From assembly GCA_040220875.1 (NCBI GenBank), contig JAVJVX010000005.1, forward strand, positions 647,665-711,664: a stretch of DNA of 64,000 nucleotides, written 5' to 3'. Made by a program: the position numbers and the translations under genes. The stretch comes from Alphaproteobacteria bacterium. Its GTDB lineage: Bacteria; Pseudomonadota; Alphaproteobacteria; JAVJVX01. The notes beneath the pieces are model-generated. The model was not told where the DNA came from and ran no database searches. It saw only the letters and a list, made by a program, of their open reading frames with translations. Below, one piece after another: positions 36,698 through 41,216 of this stretch; the first letter of the stretch is position 1; every line of letters begins with the position of its first letter.

Positions 36698-37363
36698 CTA
36701 CTGCAATGACTGGCGAAGCGCCGCCGCCGCCGCCCAGGGGCAAAGTGCCAGCGCGGCGAGCAAAAAGGCGCCCAGAATCAGCAGAAAGGGCCCCGTCTCC
36801 TGGCCCGCCATCGGGGCCTCGACCGCCGCCACGCCGAAAATCAGTACCGGCACGAAGAACGGAAGCACGATCAGCCCCAGCAGGACCCCGCCCTTGCGCG
36901 CGCCCACAATCAGCGCCGCCCCCACGGCGCCCAGCAGGCTGAGACAGGGCGTTCCCAGCGCCATCGCCGCCGCAAGCGGCCAGAGCGACGATGCCGGCAG
37001 GGCCAGCATGGAGCCGAGGATCGGAGAGAGCGCCACGATGGGCAGGCCCGTGACCAGCCAATGAGCCAATACCCGGGCCAGCACCACCATTTCGAACGGC
37101 GCCTGACCCAGGGCCAGCAGGTCGAGGCTGCCGTCATCGGCATCCGCCTGAAAAAGACGTTCGATCCCGAGCAACGCGGCCAGCAGCGCGATCACCCAGA
37201 TGATCCCCGATGCGACCCGGGCGAGCAACTGGTCGCCAGGCCCGACACCGAAGGGGAAGAGCGAGACCGTCAGCATGAAGAAAAAGAGAACCGTGAGCGT
37301 ATCGCCGCCCCGGCCGAGCGCCAGCGTCAGATCGCGCCGGAGAAGGACGAGAAATCCGGTCAT
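36698..37363 (-). CDS. ccmB: Heme exporter permease CcmB
   Basis: 221 residues from the ATG at 37363 (4-bp overlap with ccmA). Six hydrophobic segments, with the conserved LFQADADDGSLDLL and PCLSLLGAVGAALIVGARKGGVL segments. It forms the membrane part of the CcmAB exporter that works with CcmC and CcmD on heme loading of CcmE. Confidence 0.95.
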   Translation of the reverse strand: MTGFLVLLRRDLTLALGRGGDTLTVLFFFMLTVSLFPFGVGPGDQLLARVASGIIWVIALLAALLGIERLFQADADDGSLDLLALGQAPFEMVVLARVLAHWLVTGLPIVALSPILGSMLALPASSLWPLAAAMALGTPCLSLLGAVGAALIVGARKGGVLLGLIVLPFFVPVLIFGVAAVEAPMAGQETGPFLLILGAFLLAALALCPWAAAAALRQSLQ

Positions 37364-38082
37364 GAAACGGGCGCCTTCGAATGCTCGATCCAGGCGGGGG
37401 GACTGTCCGGAGCGCGCGGTCCGGCGGCACTGAGGCGCAGTTCGCGCTGTGCGCCCATGGCCAGCGAACCATGGGTCGCGGCCACCACGAGCCCGCCCGA
37501 AGCGCGATGGGAGGCGATGACGGCGGCCAGCAGGTCGCCCGCGTAGCTGTCGAGCGCGGCATCGGGCTCGTCCAGGATCCAAAGGGACCGGCGGACCGCC
37601 GTCAGGCGGGAGAGCGCCACGCGCCGGCGCTGGCCGGCGGACAGCACCCGCACCGGCAGATCGGCGAGGCGGTCCACCTCGAAACGTCTGAGCGCGTCCA
37701 GAAGCGCCGCCCGATCCGTCCGCCCGCCATAAAACCCCGCCCAGAAGCGCAGGTTTTCGATCACGGTCAACGCCGGCTTGAGTGCGTTATCGTGCCCCAG
37801 ATAATGCAGCCGGCTGCGATAGGCATCATCCGGCCGCGCGCCCGTGCCGAGAACCACCCGGCCAGCGTATGAAACCTCGCCGCGCGCCGGTGCCAGCAGC
37901 CCGGCGAGCAGCCGGAGCAGCGTGGACTTGCCACTGCCGTTGGGGCCCGTGACCACCAGCAGATCGCCGGGCGCGGACCGGAAGGAGAGATCCTGAAAGA
38001 CGAGCCGTTCACCCCGGATTGCGGCCAGCCCGCGCGCGCCCAGCTCGCCCCCCGCTCCTCTCGTCGTCTCGATCGATACCAT
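37360..38082 (-). CDS. ccmA: Heme exporter ATP-binding protein CcmA
   Basis: 240 residues. Walker A GPNGSGKST, signature LSAGQRRRVALSRL, Walker B LWILDEPDAALD and H-loop VVAATHG. First gene of the ccmABCDEFGHI operon on the minus strand. Its promoter must lie in 38083-38210; a G15 tract and a terminator facing it lie in that interval. Confidence 0.95.
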   Translation of the reverse strand: MVSIETTRGAGGELGARGLAAIRGERLVFQDLSFRSAPGDLLVVTGPNGSGKSTLLRLLAGLLAPARGEVSYAGRVVLGTGARPDDAYRSRLHYLGHDNALKPALTVIENLRFWAGFYGGRTDRAALLDALRRFEVDRLADLPVRVLSAGQRRRVALSRLTAVRRSLWILDEPDAALDSYAGDLLAAVIASHRASGGLVVAATHGSLAMGAQRELRLSAAGPRAPDSPPAWIEHSKAPVS

Positions 38083-38192
38083 CTCGCGCCGCTCAGTCTT
38101 CTGCCAGGGCGGCGGACCCTAGCACAGGAGCAGAGCTGGCCGGCACGCGTCATTTCGCCCGCGGCGCCCCGGAGAGCGGACGGGCGCCCCCC

Positions 38193-38207
38193 GGGGGGGG
38201 GGGGGGG
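38193..38207 (+). repeat. G15 homopolymer tract
   Basis: Fifteen consecutive G, preceded by C residues, upstream of ccmA and next to the terminator at 38211-38243. Such a run is prone to length change by slippage or to sequencing error. It could alter spacing in the ccmA promoter. Confidence 0.95.
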
Positions 38208-38210
38208 CGG

Positions 38211-38243
38211 AGAAAAAAAGGCCGGCCCGAAAGGGCCGGCCTT
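38211..38243 (-). terminator. Strong intrinsic terminator between acnA and ccmA
   Basis: Perfect 11-bp stem (38218-38228 with 38233-38243), GAAA loop, and on the minus strand a T-rich tail from 38211-38217. There is no protein gene upstream on this strand; it is best explained as the end of a small RNA or as insulation of ccmA. Confidence 0.9.
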
Positions 38244-38365
38244 CAGTCTTGTCTCCAGCCTTTGGGGGAAGGCTGGGCCCGACCTCTCCGAAGAGGGTCG
38301 GGGTCCTAGGGGGGTAGGAATGGTGGGACTGTGGCTGGTCAACGGGGCCGAAATGCGCCGGGAAT
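38211..38365 (-). ncRNA. Candidate small RNA with three hairpins
   Basis: On the minus strand, three stem-loops follow one another with no gene: 38278-38302 (UUCG tetraloop, about 10 bp with one bulge), 38255-38276 (8-bp stem with a C-rich loop) and the terminator 38218-38243, followed by a T tract. A CTTGACA box at 38393-38399 lies about 30 bases above the expected start, though no good -10 was found. The C-rich loop could pair with Shine-Dalgarno sequences. No known RNA family recognised. Confidence 0.5.
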
Positions 38366-38528
38366 GTGGCCAAACTGTGATTTTTCGGCAACTGTCAAGA
38401 GAGGCCCGTCCGGGGCATTTGGCGCGGGCGATTCCAGGGATGCAAAAAACGCCCCGGGATGGTAAATCGCACCCCTCGGCCGCCCCCGTCCACCGCCGCC
38501 GCCCAACCCTGATCGAGAAAGGCTTTCC

Positions 38529-41216
<2,688 letters not shown>

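Follow-up and report, generated by a model that had tools for sequence, protein, structure and literature searches.

Between the divergent genes acnA and ccmA, the window (the whole 64,000-nucleotide stretch of alphaproteobacterial DNA analysed here) carries on its minus strand a string of hairpins that very probably is a real small RNA of about 120 nt with its own promoter and terminator, common to many alphaproteobacterial families (Table 1). The most likely reading is of an RNA of about 121 nt that acts in trans, is transcribed from its own promoter up to a terminator before ccmA, and pairs its C-rich loops with ribosome-binding sites. The locus combines consecutive hairpins and a terminator with conservation through compensatory changes, C-rich loops and a promoter-like block whose spacing is fixed, and it is not tied to any single neighbouring gene.

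Table 1. Features of the acnA/ccmA intergenic region and its flanking genes (window positions).
Feature	Positions	Strand	Basis
Conserved promoter/activator block GAAAAATCACAGTTTGGCCACATTCC	38361..38386	-	Alignment of 18 non-redundant relatives
Inferred -10 hexamer CCCGTT	38341..38346	-	Columns +24 to +29 of promoter alignment
Predicted small RNA, about 121 nt	38213..38333	-	Fold, covariance models; 5' end predicted from -10 position
Small hairpin H0, UCCUA-CCCCCC-UAGGA, C6 loop	38304..38319	-	Fold; matches CCUCCCC-loop hairpin of relatives
Hairpin H1	38278..38302	-	Fold, covariance models, 24-sequence alignment
Hairpin H2, CCAGCCUU-CCCCCA-AAGGCUGG, loop at 38268-38263	38255..38276	-	Fold, covariance models, 24-sequence alignment
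Intrinsic terminator, 11-bp perfect stem 38243-38218, UUUC loop, T7 tail 38219-38213	38213..38243	-	
-10-like box TAGGGT, candidate ccmA promoter in the terminator-ccmA gap	38116..38121	-	Weak taken by itself (shuffle P 0.16)
ccmA, haem exporter ATPase, downstream of RNA	37360..38082	-	ORF; homologues at equivalent place in relatives
acnA, aconitate hydratase, divergent neighbour	38529..41216	+	ORF; gene on acnA side varies among relatives

The initial annotation had described three minus-strand stem-loops ending in an 11-bp terminator with a T tract, a C-rich loop at 38263-38268, and the absence of a protein gene upstream on that strand. When the sequence was read directly and folded, the stem-loops, the terminator and its tract were all found where claimed; the CCCCCA loop of H2 occupies exactly those six positions, and the region is indeed the divergent acnA/ccmA intergenic region. 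The inventory was incomplete in one respect, as the 5' hairpin H0 had been missed. The 155-nt stretch folds with an energy of -71.8 kcal/mol compared with a mean of -48.8 for dinucleotide shuffles (z -5.9; reached by 0/200), and the trimmed 121-nt RNA gives a fold z of -7.95. The loops in the window read CCCCCC, UUCG, CCCCCA and UUUC, and those of relatives CCUCCCC and CCCCCC. About 16 consecutive G residues (C on the minus strand; 38192-38207) lie next to the terminator on its ccmA side, a tract that is possibly slippage-prone or an assembly artefact.

Among the genomes compared, that of the window is the sole representative of its order, and a class-wide blastn search returned short matches in two other genomes (G016, locus L088; G381, locus L095), both within the same acnA/ccmA gap. 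Upstream regions of acnA were collected in 212 cases, of which 65 also contain ccmA. The ccmA strand carries a terminator in 13 of these 65 intergenic regions (two pairs among the 13 come from the same or closely related genomes) compared with 1/65 for the acnA strand, and in several of the regions the terminator loop contains C runs. The order H1-H2-terminator recurs at the same place in five genomes of one family (f105), and only these five were used to build a covariance model, R1, from which the window was left out. The only strong R1 match in the 64 kb of the window lies at 38321-38212 (35.8 bits, E 2.7e-9), the next reaching 10 bits, and the model also recognizes the syntenic loci L228, L088 and L095 (genomes G215, G016 and G381) at 30-32 bits. 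Six other acnA/ccmA gaps, L226 among them, score 16-22 bits; because R1 matches below about 22 bits also include chance hits to unrelated C-rich terminators, the assignment of these weak members rests on position together with score.

Further models extended this distribution. R2, built from ten sequences including that of the window, has a single match in the window's genome, again at 38321-38212 (67 bits, with the window in the training set; next match 16.1). Applied to 385 alphaproteobacterial genomes, it found ten new ones at 31-56 bits, that of the cultured Aquibaculum arenosum (G158) among them. In each of the ten the locus directly precedes ccmA and shares its strand, and acnA is not adjacent; the search was blind to gene context. 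A third model, R3, added four genomes, G105 and G378 among them. With R3, 20 genomes reach at least 50 bits, the scores of its own training members being inflated, and in 19 of the 20 the RNA immediately precedes a ccmA gene of the same orientation. The gene on the opposite side differs: acnA takes this place in the window, and other genomes have MnmE, a CoA ligase or a LysE protein there. Altogether the RNA is spread over about 13 alphaproteobacterial families, weak members included, and is nearly always found just upstream of ccmA. The initial annotation had proposed a small RNA opposite the acnA upstream region; the small-RNA part of that proposal is supported by the conserved hairpins, the compensatory changes, the promoter region, the terminator and the same place in relatives, and the gene it goes with is ccmA, downstream on the same strand, instead of acnA.

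Matches downstream of acnA in Devosia and Rhizobium (L028, L051, L054, L083) had weak scores and were not counted as members. These loci hold, on the strand opposite to acnA and about 0.9 kb downstream of it, a C-rich hairpin with a terminator (L051:5069-5168, L028:5050-5147, L054:5172-5304 and L083:5104-5223, all minus strand; Devosia and a Rhizobium-labelled bin), preceded in Devosia by a CCCCAATTCaGcCACgaTTTGTCC-like stretch. This element is possibly a second small RNA.

Variation in the stems defeats plain MAFFT when different families are aligned; covariance models were used instead. In the resulting 24-member alignment, which is fitted to the model so that its pair counts lean towards it, both partners have changed in 24 of 26 pairs (8/8 in H1 and 9/9 in H2), 96.8% of the cells pair compared with 68.5% in shuffled and 29-48% in slid structures, and the covariation score is 0.552 compared with 0.146. 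The similarly fitted ten-member alignment has 15 pairs with both-side changes and 97.5% of cells paired. Independent support comes from R1, which found loci outside its training set. The covariation across related genomes that the initial annotation had named as a check is present, and the hairpins are conserved. In 21 members, the hairpin loops contain 326 C, 24 G, 84 A and 83 T (63% C, 5% G), and the whole RNAs 1017 C and 611 G. Hypervariable stems with extensive compensatory change, combined with loops that remain C-rich, fit selection to present such loops. Within the RNA, sequence conservation is highest in a near-identical 5' segment, CTAGACCTCCCCTC, shared by genomes of family f88 (L291, L293, L297, L301).

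Upstream of the RNA, a GCC-anchored alignment of 18 non-redundant members yields the family consensus AAATCACA-N5-GCC-NYATT, with high information at A-Y-C-A-C-A before the GCC, which is itself the anchor, and at N-Y-A-T-T / ATT after it. A -10 consensus, CANANT, follows the GCC after a fixed gap of 21 bases, and its columns +24 to +29 are conserved despite the anchoring on GCC; the hexamer CCCGTT of the window matches it weakly. The AAATCACA-N5-GCC block is probably bound by an activator. Judged from the position of the -10 hexamer, the RNA of the window would start near 38333, and predicted lengths among the members are mostly 114-142 nt. The initial annotation had suggested an RNA of roughly 150 nt starting at 38365, an extent that would have to be shortened to the predicted size. 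It had also noted a CTTGACA box in the right place, with a poor -10. The box does exist at 38399-38393 and was rejected as the -35 box, as relatives lack it at that place. In the promoter regions of L095 and L228, GCCRCATTCMC occurs twice at a distance of 22 bp, and in the window a similar GCCACAGTCCC lies 35 bp after GCCACATTCCC. A genome-wide regulon of TTTnGCCACATTCCC was rejected: the pattern has 18 matches in the window's own genome compared with 5 for a control pattern, and these, judged by eye, are mostly coding or unrelated sequence without a shared small-RNA context.

The near-constant linkage to ccmA could indicate a role in cis. With the RNA upstream of ccmA in nearly all genomes and the gene on the other side changing, this linkage is the main argument for a cis-acting leader of ccmABC, in which transcription from the same promoter would either terminate or read through into ccmA as decided by the hairpins, in the manner of an attenuator or a riboswitch. 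However, TATGAT-like boxes are enriched in the gap between the terminator and ccmA. Their summed score across 15 relatives is 67, whereas shuffles average 46.6 (sd 4.9; 0/500), an enrichment that belongs to the set as a whole, the window's own box being weak and its role as a functional promoter putative. This enrichment suggests that ccmA likely has its own promoter. Moreover, the RNA and its promoter block are located away from ccmA in G105 and G378 (47.6 bits in the latter), beside genes for LysE-type, cupin or AraC-type regulator proteins. The candidate box before ccmA and these two relatives make it unlikely that the RNA is simply a ccmA leader. An unsystematic look revealed no conserved alternative fold, and a conserved aptamer-like sequence is absent.

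Alternatively, a trans-acting RNA might use its C-rich loops to bind a protein or to sponge a G-rich RNA rather than to contact ribosome-binding sites. The composition of the loops alone cannot separate an mRNA from a protein target, but the closest characterised analogues, alpha-r14 and AbcR, pair at ribosome-binding sites (PMC10746234, PMC7143759), and we regard a protein or sponge target as quite improbable. It is very unlikely that chance has merely brought together the terminator of an unseen transcript and GC-rich hairpins without function. Such a coincidence would be compatible with the weakness of the organism-specific promoter motifs and with the mean of 0.8 terminator-like sites expected by chance in 800 bases, yet it is at odds with the cross-family model matches, the compensatory changes, the fixed promoter spacing and the constant position.

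For the preferred reading, an independent small RNA acting in trans, transcription would start at the RNA's own promoter with its conserved upstream block and end at the strong terminator before ccmA. The loops (CCCCCC and CCCCCA in the window, CCUCCCC in relatives) would then pair with the G-rich Shine-Dalgarno sequences of a number of mRNAs and thereby block translation, in the way that alpha-r14 (NfeR1) and AbcR pair with ribosome-binding sites and silence their target mRNAs (PMC10746234, PMC7143759). By analogy with these RNAs, masking of ribosome-binding sites would be the most likely mode of action. Duplex energies of the RNA with the start regions of acnA and ccmA were no better than those of shuffles. 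A more speculative proposal, which we put forward tentatively, is that an undescribed alphaproteobacterial small-RNA family with an activator-dependent promoter is kept by the cytochrome c maturation operon to help coordinate the expression of haem or respiratory genes. The family would give alphaproteobacterial lineages beyond the well-studied Rhizobiales, Rhodobacter and Caulobacter a broad group of regulatory RNAs that have a promoter element in common. It further illustrates how such RNAs evade sequence searches, the stems being free to change while loops and promoter are kept, and the promoter block offers a direct handle on the identity of the controlling regulator.

No Rfam family reaches its gathering score in the window, and searches of the openly accessible literature for papers that name acnA, ccmA or the haem exporter together with small RNAs turned up no description of this RNA. 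The best subthreshold match in the window is anti-hemB (Burkholderia RNA 7, RF02837; 28.5 bits, E 9.5e-5, threshold 49.5), which likewise has three stem-loops with a terminator but differs in host and gene context. 6C RNA (RF01066), which was described from actinobacteria, likewise has a series of hairpins whose loops contain C runs; its model gives 21.7 bits in the window and 37.0 in L226, both below the threshold of 47. AbcR1/AbcR2 (alpha-r15) and suhB/MmgR resemble the RNA as alphaproteobacterial transcripts of about 75-120 nt with CU-rich single-stranded stretches and a GC-rich terminator. However, their UUUCCUCCC linker is absent here, and the suhB/MmgR model (RF00519) scores 25.8 bits in the window and 29.0 in L268, both below the threshold of 41. 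The closest counterpart is alpha-r14/NfeR1 (RF02344) of Sinorhizobium and relatives, an RNA of about 120 nt with three hairpins, C-rich anti-Shine-Dalgarno loops and a conserved upstream promoter stretch; alpha-r14/NfeR1, and less closely AbcR, cover Shine-Dalgarno sequences with C-rich loops that are carried by hypervariable stems (PMC10746234, PMC7143759, PMC3927594). The RNA described here has the same size of about 120 nt and the same three hairpins with hypervariable stems. It differs in its loops, CCCCCC in the window and CCUCCCC in relatives, compared with the ultraconserved CCUCCUCCC in each loop of alpha-r14, and in its promoter, where AAATCACA-N5-GCC at about -53 to -35 stands in place of TGCA-N6-GCAT (the LsrB box) at -72 to -60. 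The gene neighbourhood differs as well, and the RF02344 model has no match in the window even at E values up to 5, its best score among relatives being 30.1 compared with a gathering score of 58.8. Judged by these features, the RNA would work like alpha-r14, but its loops, its promoter motif and its score under the model place it outside that family.
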